A DNA stretch of 33,945 nucleotides, taken from assembly GCA_017961585.1 (NCBI GenBank), contig JAGCWX010000036.1, positions 1 through 33,945 on the forward strand. The letters are read 5' to 3'. Shown piece by piece: positions 8,411-23,416 of the stretch. A program made the translations under genes and the position numbers. Under the pieces are notes generated by a model, which was given only the letters and a program-made list of their open reading frames with translations, did no database searches and had not been told where the DNA came from. The stretch comes from Elusimicrobiaceae bacterium (GTDB lineage: Bacteria; Elusimicrobiota; Elusimicrobia; Elusimicrobiales; Elusimicrobiaceae). Position 1 is the stretch's first letter; every line of letters starts with the position of its first letter.

Positions 8411-8439
8411 ATTATAGATTATTTGTACACATAATACAA
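8411..8439 (-). promoter_or_regulatory. Promoter of the rpsU-dnaG-rpoD operon
   Basis: On the minus strand TTGTAT (8439-8434) and TATAAT (8416-8411) are 17 nt apart. The predicted leader is about 45 nt. The -35 box abuts the 36-bp repeat copy that begins at 8439, so the repeat has landed at the very edge of this promoter. Confidence 0.7.
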
Positions 8440-8474
8440 GCGGTGAGATTCCAAATCAAGTTTGGAATGACATT
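8439..8474. repeat. 36-bp direct repeat, copy 1 (half-element)
   Basis: This 36-bp stretch is identical to 8900-8935. It contains GGTGAGATTCC...GGAATGAC, the right arm of the palindromic family. The two copies bracket the GIY-YIG gene. Confidence 0.85.
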
Positions 8475-8486
8475 TAATCAAAAGCC

Positions 8487-8834
8487 GTCCTTCCGTACCG
8501 AATACGAGATCTCACTTTGTTGATAGATCTTTCCATTGTGGGTTTACGCGGTTGATTAGCTCTTCTTTCCAGGATCTGCGCCAGGATTTGAGTTGCTTTT
8601 CTCGGCGAATAGCATCTAGTATACTTGAACAACTTTCACAATACACTAGTTTGCATAGTTTATAGCGTTTAGAAAATCCTGGCAACAACCCACTCTTGTG
8701 CTCATAGATACGTCGTTCAAGGTTGCTCGTTACTCCAATATACAAGACCGTATTTGTATGATTGGTCAGGATGTATACGCACGCGTTCATATTTTAACAA
8801 CTTAAGGGAGAATGCTGATTCCGATCAGCATGAC
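8487..8834. mobile_element. Putative GIY-YIG element bounded by palindromic arms
   Basis: The left arm (8487-8515) begins GTCCTTCC, contains a CGTA/TACG mini-hairpin and ends ATCTCAC. The right arm (8808-8834) begins GAG, contains ATGCTGA/TCAGCAT and ends ATGAC. Gene-free family members, such as 8857-8932, have the same two arms separated by only about 16 nt. Here the GIY-YIG gene occupies that central position, and its stop codon lies inside the left arm. I infer a composite unit in which the nuclease gene belongs to the repeat. Mobility is not shown. Confidence 0.45.
8512..8790 (-). CDS. GIY-YIG domain endonuclease, small single-domain type
   Basis: The 92-residue protein is essentially one GIY-YIG domain: VYIL (residues 5-8), YIG (17-19), the catalytic arginine in LERRIYEHK (Arg27), and a glutamate in DAIRREKQLKSW. 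It ends NPQWKDLSTK. The family includes the YhbQ/UPF0213-like proteins, many of unknown role, and the domain nicks or cuts DNA. No ribosome binding site or clear promoter is visible. The gene is enclosed by arms of the local palindromic repeat, with its stop codon in the left arm, and by two identical 36-bp repeats further out. This suggests a role in repeat mobility rather than host DNA repair, but that is inference. Confidence 0.85.
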   Translation of the reverse strand: MNACVYILTNHTNTVLYIGVTSNLERRIYEHKSGLLPGFSKRYKLCKLVYCESCSSILDAIRREKQLKSWRRSWKEELINRVNPQWKDLSTK

Positions 8835-8856
8835 GACTATTCATACGATATAAAAC

Positions 8857-8932
8857 GTCATCCTGAACTTGATTCAGGATCTCACCCTGTGTTGTTGGAA
8901 GCGGTGAGATTCCAAATCAAGTTTGGAATGAC
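8857..8932. repeat. Intact 76-bp palindromic element
   Basis: The left arm of 30 bp (GTCATCC...ATCTCACC) and the right arm of 30 bp (GGTGAGAT...GGAATGAC) are near-perfect inverted repeats around a 16-nt centre. Each arm also has its own small inverted repeat, for example CCTGAA/TTCAGG. The RNA or single-stranded DNA would fold into one long hairpin or a cruciform. The right part is the second copy (8900-8935) of the 36-bp direct repeat. Confidence 0.85.
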
Positions 8933-8941
8933 ATTATCAAT

Positions 8942-9277
8942 TTACCCGGCGGGCCACAGGAACCGGCGGCCGGCCATCATGTGAAAGTGTAAATGGTCCA
9001 CGCTCTGCCCCGCGCCTTTGCCGTTGTTGGTAACCAGGCGGAAGTCCTTTAAATCAAACTGCTGCGCCAGCTTTTTGGCCACCAACAGGATGTGCCCCAA
9101 GAGGGCGGCATCCTTTTCGTCCGCTTCGCACAGGCGCGCAATGTGCTTGCGCGGGATGATCAAAAGATGGGTGGGGGCTTGGGGATTTAAGTCCTTAAAT
9201 GCCACCACGTGTTCGTCTTCGTAGATAAGTTGGCTCTTAATGGAGCCGTCGGCAATGCCACAAAATATACAAGTCAT
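8942..9277 (-). CDS. HIT family nucleotide hydrolase (HINT-like)
   Basis: The 111-residue protein has the histidine triad HLHFH at residues 95-99. It binds the alpha-phosphate of a nucleotide and forms the nucleotidyl-enzyme intermediate. The N-terminus CIFCGIADG resembles the zinc-binding start of HINT proteins. Family members hydrolyse AMP-linked lysine or other purine phosphoramidates, and the exact substrate here is unknown. The length is normal. The ATG at 9277 has no ribosome binding site and sits 6 nt after TATAAT (9284-9289), so the message is probably leaderless. The gene stands alone, next to the 76-bp palindromic repeat. Confidence 0.93.
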   Translation of the reverse strand: MTCIFCGIADGSIKSQLIYEDEHVVAFKDLNPQAPTHLLIIPRKHIARLCEADEKDAALLGHILLVAKKLAQQFDLKDFRLVTNNGKGAGQSVDHLHFHMMAGRRFLWPAG

Positions 9278-9283
9278 ACATCC

Positions 9284-9289
9284 ATTATA
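9284..9289 (-). promoter_or_regulatory. -10 box of the HIT gene, 6 nt before the ATG
   Basis: TATAAT on the minus strand is followed by exactly 6 nt (ggatgt) and the start codon. There is no room for a ribosome binding site after the expected transcription start. Confidence 0.6.
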
Positions 9290-9384
9290 CTAAACTAGAA
9301 CCAAGTTATTTTAAAAATTGGATGAGGGAAATTTAGCCCCTTCCCAAATGAGTAGCGAATAGCCCAAAAATCAAGGCCCCCCTA

Positions 9385-9405
9385 GGCCCAAAATGGGCCC
9401 TTTTT
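9385..9405 (+). terminator. Orphan terminator-like hairpin
   Basis: GGCCC and GGGCC pair around a small AT loop and are followed, after one C, by TTTTT. No plus-strand gene ends nearby. The block 9371-9438 resembles the terminator-plus-promoter block at 14330-14397, so it may be a relic of a lost gene or end an unseen transcript. Confidence 0.45.
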
Positions 9406-9409
9406 GCGC

Positions 9410-9438
9410 TTGACAATGCTAACATAATTTGCTAACAT
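9410..9438 (+). promoter_or_regulatory. Strong sigma-70 type promoter without an assigned gene
   Basis: TTGACA (9410-9415) and TAACAT (9433-9438) are separated by 17 nt. Transcription would start near 9445. The next recognisable gene on this strand is the pilin at 10104, about 660 nt away, which has its own closer promoter. Confidence 0.6.
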
Positions 9439-9444
9439 ACAGTT

Positions 9445-9718
9445 GCAGTACCCGGTGCGGTCCTCGCGCTGGGCTTTCAACATAATTTGTCAGTGAAACA
9501 CCCCAACAGTGCGTGCCCCTACCTCACACACTTTAAACCAGCAAAAGGAGTAAAATTAACGGGTGTTAGAACTGGTGTCTAGTCAGGCCATAGAGGCCGG
9601 AGCAACGTGCCACCCTCACGACTCCGCCACAGGCATACCCCCCTTTGCGGGGGGGGACCCTCTATTACCGAATCCGCTGGAAAATAAACCCATTTTGGTA
9701 TGGGCGCGTGGCGTTTAA
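9445..9718 (+). ncRNA. Candidate structured RNA of unknown class
   Basis: The stretch follows a good promoter and contains several pairings: a 9-bp stem CCCGGTGCG/CGCGCTGGG (about 9452-9474), AACACCC (9497-9503) with GGGTGTT (9561-9567), GGCC/GGCC around 9587-9599, and a C6/G6 hairpin (9638-9656). It does not show the signatures of tmRNA, 6S RNA, SRP RNA or the common riboswitches. A 51-codon frame from a GTG at 9563 to TAA at 9716 has an AAAGGAG 13 nt upstream, so a small protein is the alternative. I cannot assign either. Confidence 0.3.
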
Positions 9719-10032
9719 GTTTTTTTGCGCCGCAAAACCCAAGTAAGTATTTTCTTTACTTACAAATACTTAAACGGCTAAATGCCACAGCGAGCTACAC
9801 AGAAGCAGACCGAAATCTTGCCAGTTCTTTATGTCTTGCTTGCGGGAACATGATTGCTAAACCGCTTGCTGTAGGTGGTTTAGTTAAATGCCTAGGGGTA
9901 AAGGGTTTGTGTCATTTTCGTAGACAAGTTGGCTCCTATATACCAAACCAGGGCCGAGTTGTTTTGAAAATACTGCGTTGCCGGGTTGATGGACTTATTT
10001 GCTTTTTGCCATTCTTTCTTGATAAAAAAGAC
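9719..10032. other. Intergenic stretch without a recognised gene
   Basis: I see no promoter-like or repeat signal that I can assign here. A 114-codon open frame (9700-10044) crosses it, but it has no ribosome binding site, no recognisable motif and an unusually high content of Cys and Leu. I treat it as non-coding. A small AAGTAAGTA/TTACTTAC inverted repeat lies near 9740-9765. Confidence 0.5.
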
Positions 10033-10060
10033 TTGACATTTTGAAGAAAATGATTAGACT
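10033..10060 (+). promoter_or_regulatory. Predicted promoter of the second pilin
   Basis: TTGACA at 10033-10038 and TAGACT at 10055-10060 are 16 nt apart. A short GGGG/CCCC hairpin follows in the leader before the AAGGAG ribosome binding site. Confidence 0.55.
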
Positions 10061-10103
10061 ATACATAGGGGTTTGCCCCCAAATCAAAAAAGGAGATTAA
10101 CTT

Positions 10104-10595
10104 ATGAAAAAAGGTTTCACATTAATTGAGTTACTTGTAGTAGTACTCATCATTGGTATCTTGGCTGCAGTAGCCCTGCCCCAATATACCAAAGCAGTAG
10201 AAAAATCCCGCGCGGCTGAAGCAATGCAATTGTTGGGCGACATTGCTACCGCGGAACAAATCTATTACCTATCGGCCGATGACTTCACCAACGTAATGGG
10301 AGATTTGGACTTAACTTTCCCGGGTGTCTCAGAGGGGACCAACAATATCATTAAAACGAATAGTTACATCGTTGAAGTGACCGTGTCGGGTTCAGGATCT
10401 AATGCCCAAGTTATGGCTGAAGCTAGACGTAATGGAGGCGCTTTCAATGGAAGAGCCCTAAGACTGAAGGTAAAAGCCGACGGGACCGTGTTGAGAGGGT
10501 TTGCTCTGGATAATGATGGGAACAAGTTGTGCAACTTGGTATCCACTTGGAGTAACATCAACCCTAAGTGCACGACACTGGATTGGAACGCTTAG
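10104..10595 (+). CDS. Type IV pilin / pseudopilin-like protein
   Basis: This 163-residue protein has leader MKKG, cleavage G|F, Glu5 and the same hydrophobic helix as the other pilins in the window. After it, AVEKSRAAEAMQLL continues the helix. The globular head, from about residue 55, is unlike the head of the first pilin and ends with a probable disulphide pair (KLCNLVSTW...PKCTTLDWNA). The start is fixed by AAAAAAGGAG. The gene has its own promoter and a strong terminator at 10619-10650, so it is a single-gene unit. At nucleotide level the conserved helix differs from the other two pilins at many synonymous sites, so this is not a recent duplication. Its role in a fibre is inferred from the signal only. 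Confidence 0.9.
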   Translation: MKKGFTLIELLVVVLIIGILAAVALPQYTKAVEKSRAAEAMQLLGDIATAEQIYYLSADDFTNVMGDLDLTFPGVSEGTNNIIKTNSYIVEVTVSGSGSNAQVMAEARRNGGAFNGRALRLKVKADGTVLRGFALDNDGNKLCNLVSTWSNINPKCTTLDWNA

Positions 10596-10618
10596 AGCGT
10601 TTTAAGAATTAAAAAGAT

Positions 10619-10650
10619 GCTCCCCAGTTTTAACCGGGGAGCTCTTTTTT
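10619..10650 (+). terminator. Rho-independent terminator of the second pilin
   Basis: GCTCCCC (10619-10625) pairs with GGGGAGC (10636-10642), and the stem is followed by TCTTTTTT. It closes the pilin unit just before the promoter of the ACAD-Etf operon. Confidence 0.9.
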
Positions 10651-10651
10651 G

Positions 10652-10657
10652 TATAAT
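10652..10657 (+). promoter_or_regulatory. -10 box of the ACAD-etfBA operon
   Basis: TATAAT lies directly after the pilin terminator, 29 nt before the ATG at 10687. The sequence TATAATATAGT is shared with the region before ileS (15242-15252), and both leaders carry TTGGAGT about 10 nt before the start. Confidence 0.5.
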
Positions 10658-10686
10658 ATAGTATCTCTATTTGGAGTGTTTGAACT

Positions 10687-12330
10687 ATGGCTAAAAACGA
10701 CTTAACCACCCGCAACCTCATGCTGGATAGCTTGAAACAATATGCTAAAAAACGCATTTCGTTCAACTTCATCCGCGAACACGACGCGAAAAACCAAATC
10801 CCTTTAGAAATTTTAAAAGAAATGTACGACCACGATGTGCTGGGCGTGCATTTGCTGCTCATCCCGGAGGAGTACGGCGGCTTAAGCGGGCAAACCACCG
10901 AAATTTACCGCGTGTGCGAACAGCTGGCCCGTATTGACCTGGGCATTGCCACCGGCGTATTTGCCACCTTCCTGGGCAGCGACCCAATTAACGTAGGCGG
11001 TACCCCCGAGCAAAAAGCCAAATGGTTCAAAAAAATTGCGCAGGAAAACAAACTGGTTGCCTACGGTGCCACCGAGGCAGATGCCGGGTCCGACCTGGTT
11101 TCTTTGCGCACCCGCGCCGAGCACGTGGTTAAAGACGGCAAAGTGGTGGGCTACAAAATTACCGGCAGCAAAATGTGGATTTCCAACGGCGGCGTAGCCG
11201 ATATTTACACGGTGCTGGCCCTGGCCCCCGGCGGCCCGAGCTGGTTTATTGTGGAAAAAGGCACCCCCGGCTTTACGCAAGACGTGCATGAAGACAAACA
11301 CGGCATCCGCCTTTCCAACACGGCGGGGTTGGCGTTTGATGAAGTATACGTGCCGGCCGAAAATTTAATTGGGCTTAAAGAAGGACAGGGATTTTTGCAA
11401 GCCCAGGCCGTATTTGGTTATACGCGCTTGATGGTGGCGGCCTTTGGTTTGGGCGGCGGTGAAGAAGCCGTGGAAACCGCCCTGGAATATGCGCAACAGC
11501 GCGTCCAGGCCGGAACCCCACTCGCGCAAAAGCAGGGCTTTATGCTCAAGCTCATCACGCCGCATTACGTGCGCTTTGAAGCCGTCCGCGCGTACATTGA
11601 CTGGACGGCCAAACAGCTGGAAGTGAACAACCACGGCTTGGCTACCGAGGGCGCAATTGCCAAACTCTATGCCACCGAATCGGGCAACAAAGCGGCCGAA
11701 GATGCTATCCAAGCGATGGGTGGTTTTGGATATACCAAAGAATTCCCGGTGGAAAAAATCAAACGCGATGTAAAGATTACCTGCATTTACGAAGGAACCA
11801 GCGAAGTGTTGGAAATGACCATCTTCCGCGGACGCTGGCAGGAACATCTCAAATCGCGCGGGCAATATTATATGAATCAGGCCACCGAATTTGATACCCT
11901 TCACGCCCAAAACCCGAACGTGGGGGCAGACAGCGTGGCCCTGGGGTTGCGCGCGTTGGCGCGCGTGCTGGAAGATTGCCGTGTCAATAAACTCACCCGT
12001 CATCAATATGTTACCTTTATGTTGGGCGATTTAATCAGCGAAATGGAAGTGGCCGCGGTGTTCACCCGCCAATGTGCCAATAAGGTAGTGACGGAAGGCA
12101 GCCGGTTTGATATAGATTCGCTTTGTACCATGGCCCGCGTAAATGCGCGCCAAAGTGCCTTTAAAGTGGCTAGCGAAGGCATGCGCCTGATCTTGGGAAC
12201 CTGCCCCAACATCAACACGGCCGAGCTGGCGCAAGCGGTCAATTTGACAGGCATTGAAGATAAAATGCGCGGACTGATTGAAGATATGGATGGTGTGTCC
12301 GCTAAATTACGGGAAATTTTCAAAAAATAG
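10687..12330 (+). CDS. Acyl-CoA dehydrogenase, long form
   Basis: This flavoprotein interconverts an acyl-CoA and its 2,3-enoyl-CoA. Family signatures in order are YGATEADAGSDLVS, KMWISNGGVADIY and, in the C-terminal helical domain, AMGGFGYTKEFPVEKIKRD and IYEGTSEVLEM. In many short-chain members the glutamate of YEGTSE is the catalytic base. The protein has 547 residues against about 380 for the basic family, and the extra 150 or so form a C-terminal extension of unknown role. It is the first gene of an operon with etfB and etfA, whose EtfA carries two [4Fe-4S] motifs. In known systems of this design (caffeyl-CoA reductase, butyryl-CoA dehydrogenase complexes) the enzyme works as a reductase in flavin-based electron bifurcation. 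The acyl-CoA substrate cannot be read from sequence. Confidence 0.92.
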   Translation: MAKNDLTTRNLMLDSLKQYAKKRISFNFIREHDAKNQIPLEILKEMYDHDVLGVHLLLIPEEYGGLSGQTTEIYRVCEQLARIDLGIATGVFATFLGSDPINVGGTPEQKAKWFKKIAQENKLVAYGATEADAGSDLVSLRTRAEHVVKDGKVVGYKITGSKMWISNGGVADIYTVLALAPGGPSWFIVEKGTPGFTQDVHEDKHGIRLSNTAGLAFDEVYVPAENLIGLKEGQGFLQAQAVFGYTRLMVAAFGLGGGEEAVETALEYAQQRVQAGTPLAQKQGFMLKLITPHYVRFEAVRAYIDWTAKQLEVNNHGLATEGAIAKLYATESGNKAAEDAIQAMGGFGYTKEFPVEKIKRDVKITCIYEGTSEVLEMTIFRGRWQEHLKSRGQYYMNQATEFDTLHAQNPNVGADSVALGLRALARVLEDCRVNKLTRHQYVTFMLGDLISEMEVAAVFTRQCANKVVTEGSRFDIDSLCTMARVNARQSAFKVASEGMRLILGTCPNINTAELAQAVNLTGIEDKMRGLIEDMDGVSAKLREIFKK

Positions 12331-22760: not shown

Positions 22761-22766
22761 CATATA

Positions 22767-23088
22767 GGTGGCAGCTAATACCCCGGATTCTGTCGCGGAT
22801 AACCATTACTCTAAGCGGCCTACTTGGTTACGAAGGCGGGCACCTATGAACCGGCTTGGCCTTGCTCCATGCGGGGTTTACCTTGCCGCGCTTGTTACCT
22901 CGCGCGCGGTGCGCTCTTACCGCACCTTTTCACCCTTACCCTTGCGGGCGGTTTGTTTTCTGCGGCACTTTCCATCCAACGGGTTTTTAGCCCATTGTTC
23001 CACCCTTTCGGATGGCGCATTGCCCTATGGAGTCCGGAAGTTCCTCCCCCTGCGCTAGACTTAGCCGGGAGCGGTTATCTAAGCTGCC
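22767..23088 (-). ncRNA. rnpB: RNase P RNA, bacterial type A
   Basis: The RNA subunit of RNase P cuts the 5' leader from tRNA precursors. On the minus strand the conserved blocks appear in order: GAGGAACTTCCGGACTCC (23046-23029, consensus GAGGAAAGUCCGGGCUCC), AGAAAACAAACCGCCCGCAA, GGGTGAAAAGGTGCGGTAAG followed by AGC and CACCGCG, and near the 3' end ACAGAATCCGGGGTATTAG. Helix P1 closes the molecule: GGCAGCT (23088-23082) pairs with AGCTGCC (22776-22770). The length of about 320 nt is normal for a compact type A RNA. The ends are estimated from P1. A terminator follows at 22760-22728. I see no convincing promoter in the repeats upstream. Confidence 0.96.
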
Positions 23089-23416
23089 AAATTTCTTTCT
23101 AATTTTGTGCATTTCGTTGTCGCTTGGATAGGCGGATACCTCCGCGCTAACGCGCGCGTGCCGCCAGTATTCCTTCTATCCGCGCTCCTAGAACTGCGCA
23201 AAATTCGTTTGAAATTTTCAAATTTCTTTCTAATTTTGTGCATTTCGTTGTCGCTTGGATAGGCGGATACCTCCGCGCTAACGCGCGCGTGCCGCCAGTA
23301 TTCCTTCTATCCGCACTCCTAGAACTGCGCAAAATTCGTTTGAAATTTTCAAATTTCTTTCTAATTTTGTACGTTTCGTTGTCACTTGGATGGGTGACCC
23401 GTTTCGTTGTACAAAA
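23089..23416. repeat. 131-bp tandem repeat, about 2.5 copies, upstream of rnpB
   Basis: Copies begin at 23089, 23220 and 23351 (aaatttctttct...), a constant period of 131 bp. The first two are nearly identical, while the third is partial and diverged. Each full copy contains GCGGATA/TATCCGC, and across the copy junction GCGCAAAATT pairs with AATTTTGTGC, so long hairpins are possible. The repeat fills the gap between rnpB and the end of the symporter gene. Confidence 0.9.

Follow-up and report, generated by a model that had tools for sequence, protein, structure and literature searches.

The stretch of DNA analysed here, hereafter the window, comprises the 33,945 nucleotides of contig C23 (JAGCWX010000036.1) of a 1.49-Mb Elusimicrobiaceae genome, which probably stems from the rumen, judging by its placement in a genus of RUG (rumen-read) relatives. 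To the left of the RNA gene described below lie a gene that we take from its translation to be dnaG, the ribosomal S21 gene, a GIY-YIG gene and a HIT-domain gene, the last of these (8942-9277) reading left. To its right, a type IV pilin-like gene at 10104 and an acyl-CoA dehydrogenase gene at 10687 both read right. Between the HIT and dehydrogenase genes (9277-10687) lies a hotspot: across relatives this gap is empty in some species and harbours a pilin-like gene, not the same one throughout, or another frame in others, in a comparison where the dehydrogenase start was visible at 17 of the 30 loci. The small GIY-YIG gene (8512-8790) is flanked by two identical, partly palindromic repeats of 37 bases, at 8438-8474 and 8899-8935, with an inverted related copy at 8850-8886. 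Class A RNase P RNA is encoded on the minus strand of the window at 22764-23090 (Rfam, 202 bits).

On the plus strand at 9385-9404 there is a hairpin of the intrinsic terminator type (GGCCCAAAATGGGCC) followed by CTTTTT, which would insulate the adjoining region against transcription from the left. It is succeeded at 9410-9438 by a sigma-70-type promoter, TTGACA-17-TAACAT with an extended TG before the -10 box, which is recognized by its motif and its conservation and is overlapped by two copies of TGCTAACATA (9417-9426 and 9430-9439). Since 2 kb contain five promoter-like sites where 3.2 would be expected, the match is weak by itself, but homologues conserve it: the promoter is kept in the relatives G039, G058 and G009, and G027, the most distant homologue, has TTGACA...TACATT at the same place. 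The combination of terminator and promoter also precedes the copies in G039, in G058 and at three sites in G009.

Judging by the position of the -10 box, transcription would start at about 9445, and the 3' end of the predicted RNA is placed where conservation stops (TAAATGCCTAGGGGTAAAGGGTTTG), giving a plus-strand transcript of about 465 nt (9445-9909). In the alignment the conserved stretch begins with the terminator and promoter (about 9381-9440) and extends to GGGTTTG, at about 9909. A preliminary description made from the sequence had noticed the promoter, which is indeed present and conserved, and had drawn borders of 9410-9718 around a hairpin-rich stretch; the proposed end falls inside a conserved element that reaches nearly 200 bases further, and the best conserved part of the whole, the 3' domain, lies beyond it. 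Identity to G039 is 53/60 in the terminator and promoter; within the RNA it is 100/120, 103/130, 70/87 and 115/132 in successive segments, and past its end 48/131. The corresponding figures for G027 are 26/60, then 55/120, 80/130, 41/87 and 93/132, and finally 22/131. A terminator-like site within the RNA (9701-9717, followed by seven T) could yield a shorter transcript. An intrinsic terminator was looked for at 9909 and after the 3' tail, and none was found.

Clear matches to the element were obtained in four relatives (G039, G058, G009 and G027) by a DNA search of 101 genomes, whose overall tally of 101 in 101 is meaningless since the E limit of 10 admits noise for every genome. A longer DNA query matched 5 of 66 genomes of the genus, counting the source genome; when only near-complete genomes are considered, the figure is 3 of 36. 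R1, a covariance model built on the core, was run with stricter filters and recovered the identical five among 340 genomes of the phylum. When the core pattern was run against the genome_contigs collection, four records were returned, all from the RNA-carrying relatives.

The folding energy of the single sequence is unremarkable (9440-9730; z -1.35, 20 of 200 shuffles as good), and the case for a real structure is therefore made by comparison with relatives only. Within the 5' part, the hairpin P1 (9451-9459/9465-9473) has two of nine pairs changed on both sides. The long-range helix P2 joins AACACCC at 9497-9503 to GGGTGTT at 9561-9567 with four of seven pairs so changed, and reads CATGC-GGG/CCC-TGCATG instead in G027. 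The hairpin P3 (9508-9515/9525-9532) contributes two of seven. The core is a three-way junction closed by P4 (9586-9596/9659-9669; nine of 11 pairs with two-sided changes), from which branch the hairpin P4a (9598-9626; three of nine), of the form N5-CAA-CGUG-CYACCCU-CACG-A-N5, and, behind the invariant CCACAGGCAT (9627-9636), the hairpin P4b (9638-9642/9651-9655; three of five). All these elements are on the plus strand. A closing helix at the 5' end, P0, pairs in G039, G058 and G009; it was omitted from the model because the window forms only two of its seven pairs.

For the core (9560-9690), a hand-built structure placed on a MAFFT alignment of the five sequences left 93.2% of 118 cells paired, and both partners had changed in 15 of its 25 pairs, against a mean of 4.9 in shuffled controls (0 of 500 as high) and 3 to 5 when the partners were slid. 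In the 5' part (P1, P2 and P3) 92.5% of 107 cells were paired, and two-sided changes were seen in 8 of 23 pairs, against a shuffled mean of 2.6 (0 of 500 as high) and 1 to 2 with slid partners. The basis of these counts is five sequences, two of which (G009 and G058) were assembled from contig ends. When the alignment was folded with no structure supplied, the core reached z -4.0 and the 5' part z -5.1 relative to shuffled columns. Pairing strands within species gave an energy of -397.9, compared to a permuted mean of -277.9 for swapped strands (0 of 2000), a test that leans towards structure since the helices were picked by eye. P1 and P2 had both been pointed out in the preliminary description, and its suggestion of a new structured RNA, with covariation in relatives as the check, is supported by the homologues, by compensatory changes far above the controls and by the outcome of the Rfam search given below.

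Next along the strand comes P5 (9675-9679/9788-9792), which encloses a variable arm, P6 (9690-9698/9769-9777). One compensated pair is seen in P5, where CGCTG/CAGCG becomes TGCTG/CAGCA in G027, and P6 differs in sequence in every species, with seven of nine pairs formed in the window. Further along the plus strand are the hairpin P8 (9803-9810/9833-9841) with the invariant loop GAAATCTTGCCAGTTCT, the hairpin P9 (9857-9883) and the conserved tail at 9885-9909. The sequence of P9 differs from species to species and is pairable in all five, with fold z of -4.7 in the window, -5.2 in G058, -2.8 in G009, -2.5 in G027 and -1.6 in G039 (12 of 200 shuffles). Alignment folding of the 3' domain by itself gives no more local consensus structure than expected (z +0.31), and the role of this domain is thus argued from conservation, from P9 and from candidate long-range pairings. 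In G027 (L100) the sequence behind the 3' tail, TTTGTCTTGGAAAC..GAAAAGGG, recurs slightly changed further downstream.

The first of these putative pairings, PK1, starts from the invariant strand AGAACTGGTGTCTAGTCA (9568-9585), in which 9568-9575 is complementary to CCAGTTCT (9821-9828) in the loop of P8; the two stretches lie about 245 bases apart and form an exact 8-bp complement, and PK1 is without covariation because both strands are invariant in all five sequences. In PK2, AGGCAT within the invariant strand preceding P4b can pair with ATGCCT (9888-9893), likewise invariant. In PK3, CCCCTA of the P3 loop (9516-9521) may pair with TAGGGG (9893-9898), with six of six pairs possible in four species and four of six in G027. 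PK2 and PK3 are candidates that, being invariant or nearly so, are short enough that they may have arisen by chance.

The window and the five homologue loci were compared with Rfam 15 at both threshold and permissive settings, and the element had chance-level matches only, in keeping with the earlier remark that no signature of tmRNA, 6S RNA or a common riboswitch is visible. tmRNA can be discarded as a candidate, none being present in the window and the gene itself lying at G000:C36:33544-33887 in the source genome. tmRNA, 6S RNA and RNase P RNA resemble the element as promoter-driven housekeeping RNAs in a similar size range, but tmRNA and RNase P RNA lie elsewhere (contig C36 and 22764-23090, respectively), 6S RNA has no match to the element, and the element is absent from most relatives. 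In having a covarying extended structure, its own promoter and no conserved coding frame, it falls within the general kind of large structured bacterial non-coding RNA. For ROOL, GOLLD and OLE, the formation of RNA-only oligomers is a criterion. ROOL (Rumen-Originating, Ornate, Large) is comparable as a large, protein-free RNA gene with multiple pseudoknots and a rumen link, and, according to PMC12286853, is carried by phages and prophages, frequently close to tRNA islands. The RNA described here differs in having no Rfam match and in its chromosomal position between housekeeping genes, with no tRNA in the window; the phage or prophage setting near tRNA islands that goes with ROOL and GOLLD was not found among its chromosomal neighbours. 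GOLLD shares the large ornate form and a strongly conserved 3' region, but many of its members exceed 800 nt, as the same source has it (PMC12286853), whereas the present RNA is shorter (about 465 nt), matches no Rfam family and is accompanied by no recognisable prophage. OLE, for which the account consulted gives a length of about 600 nt and an occurrence in Gram-positive species that are extremophilic or anaerobic, is a stand-alone large structured RNA with unexplained chemistry, and the raiA motif (ModT RNA), described in the corresponding account from Bacillota and other phyla, is likewise structured and stand-alone; neither gave an Rfam match here. The best reading is that of a new and separate family which resembles OLE, ROOL, GOLLD and raiA in general kind.

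We consider it likely that the locus encodes, as a gene in its own right, a large structured non-coding RNA, which acts in trans and is not a leader of the next gene. In the proposed mechanism, the terminator at 9385-9404 would shield the strong promoter at 9410-9438, from which the predicted RNA of about 465 nt (approximately 9445-9909) would be made. The RNA would fold into the 5' part (P1, and P2 closing P3), the junction P4/P4a/P4b, the P5/P6 arm, P8, P9 and the 3' tail, and PK1, perhaps with two more pairings, would fold the 3' domain back so that it contacts the junction and the P3 loop. The working product would be this folded RNA, alone or with a host protein. As to its role, our first guess is a scaffold or an RNA-protein particle and our second a ribozyme. 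Bacteria have few large RNAs of intricate fold, mostly with unexplained functions, and this would be a further class, in Elusimicrobiota, a phylum for which a literature search found no paper on a structured RNA.

The distribution of the RNA is patchy. On a DnaG tree of 27 genomes of the genus, the window groups with G009, G058 and G039 (support 92), and three relatives of this group, G060, G017 and G054, are without the RNA; G027 pairs with G003, which is also without it. The five carriers are not one clade on this tree, where the pattern takes two changes and a single clade is rejected, and gain by transfer and ancestral presence with losses both fit. The position beside the HIT gene is common to the four related species, and in G027 the RNA is found at a different locus while the HIT locus is without it. 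When a diverged copy was sought at the HIT locus of other species with the model and filters off, the best E was 0.39 among 26 of the 30 fetched loci. The existence of species with the RNA next to near relatives lacking it provides natural knock-outs for comparison.

The source genome (G000), G039 and G027 harbour a single copy each. The genome of G009 has the promoter block four times, on C110 beside the HIT gene, at the ends of C72 and C126, and on C38. On C72 and C126 the block is followed by the same RNA 5' end, after which the contig stops; contig ends inside the RNA are ascribed to the effect of repeats on short-read assembly. On C38 the block stands before a glycosyltransferase-like gene and the RNA body is absent after P1. 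G009 has at least three RNA 5' ends at different loci. The gene on C72 is BamA-like (by eye), and its orthologue in G058 and G039 lies directly before a gene that we take from its translation to be ruvA, with no insert. Since contig C28 of G009 carries the 3' half of the RNA directly before ruvA, the 5' end on C72 and this 3' half point to a copy between the BamA-like gene and ruvA in G009; the HIT-locus copy can be told from it by two base differences close to the promoter. A third copy in G009 is probably the one at C126. G058 has the 5' half at the HIT locus and the 3' half at ileS (also presumed from its translation), and two copies or one rearranged copy fit equally.

Dispersal of this kind may be taken to mean that the RNA belongs to a mobile element, as its working part or as a passenger, for example as guide or scaffold for a protein encoded elsewhere or as a non-autonomous unit, and is kept for its own spread. 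The several 5' ends in G009, one of them at a site that is insert-free in two relatives, the carriers scattered over the DnaG tree and the displaced copy in G027 are all consistent with such an element, but no protein gene travels with the RNA, neither terminal inverted repeats nor target duplications nor a transposase with the RNA copies could be established, three genomes are single-copy, and four related species have the HIT locus in common, and we regard this explanation as unlikely. A bolder version, which we hold to be doubtful, is that mobile, protein-free ornate RNAs form a new class, represented by an insulated cassette that spreads between chromosomal sites of rumen Elusimicrobium-type bacteria and has its central hairpin module, P4a, in common with a tRNA-adjacent phage RNA. 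If true, this would join the phage-borne way of life of ROOL and GOLLD to a chromosomal RNA in another phylum. A pure RNA gene dispersed within one genome is unusual and testable, and would be more than routine.

A cis-acting, riboswitch-like leader of the downstream gene is also to be weighed, as the next gene is co-directional in four of the five genomes, which a cis role also predicts, and a terminator-like sequence followed by a run of T lies inside the RNA. The RNA is followed by the pilin in the window, by acyl-CoA dehydrogenase in G039, by ruvA in G009, by ileS in G058 and, in G027, by a gene of convergent orientation, so that across the five genomes no constant downstream gene or pathway of the kind expected for a riboswitch or leader was found, and in close relatives the HIT locus is present without the RNA. 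In G039, G058 and G009 the next gene has a -10-like sequence of its own (by eye). The earlier proposal of a long leader of the pilin at 10104 fails since the downstream gene is different in every genome, and the terminator-promoter-RNA cassette standing before unrelated genes, together with several copies in one genome, argues against a leader in general, which we judge very unlikely.

A different origin, that of a domesticated phage RNA with the way of life of ROOL or GOLLD, was brought up by a single match of the P4a pattern in the viral collection, on phage contig L161 (IMGVR_UViG_3300029624_000040). The match lies in a stretch without an obvious gene (L161:2240-2690, minus strand) just behind a tRNA-like gene. 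Its hairpin has 23 bases identical to the P4a core of G027 and an outer 5-bp stem that is different but matching, hence compensated; it is enclosed by a further helix and scores 24.8 bits over 29 positions with R1. It is possible that this hairpin is a shared module, and homology is not claimed. The match was picked out of a very large collection, no other part of the RNA aligns with L161, the L161 stretch has no match in Rfam, ROOL and GOLLD included, and blastn of the RNA found no match in phages (50,697 phage records) or plasmids, and we consider a phage origin highly improbable. Hairpin queries against phages and plasmids gave chance-level matches only, four patterns from the core and 3' domain gave none in the viral collection, and the stretches of L161 and L162 gave none by blastn against phages. 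L162 is among the four stretches returned by a looser P4a pattern and has a matching stem, but within an open frame; L163 and L164, without matching stems, were rejected as chance matches.

The 51-codon GTG frame on the plus strand (9563-9718) and the AAAGGAG (9544-9550), which ends 12 bases upstream of it, are present as first described, and the frame is open across 26 codons in four species. Relative to the window, synonymous and non-synonymous changes in these 26 codons number 2 and 4 in G039, 1 and 4 in G058, 0 and 4 in G009, and 1 and 10 in G027, and the frame is 37 codons long in G039, at least 31 in G058 (contig end) and 69 in G009. With this mainly non-synonymous change, loop indels and varying length, and with no Pfam match for it or for a 114-codon frame at 9700, coding is not supported, and the idea of a small protein gene with its own leader deserves practically no credence.

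The promoter with tandem repeats like those at 9417-9439 of the window also occurs before an unrelated gene whose product starts with MKIPYIK or MKTPYIK (G039:C6:36477, G054:C16:17571 and G017:C122:3851), which might reflect a common regulator or the reuse of a favoured strong promoter.
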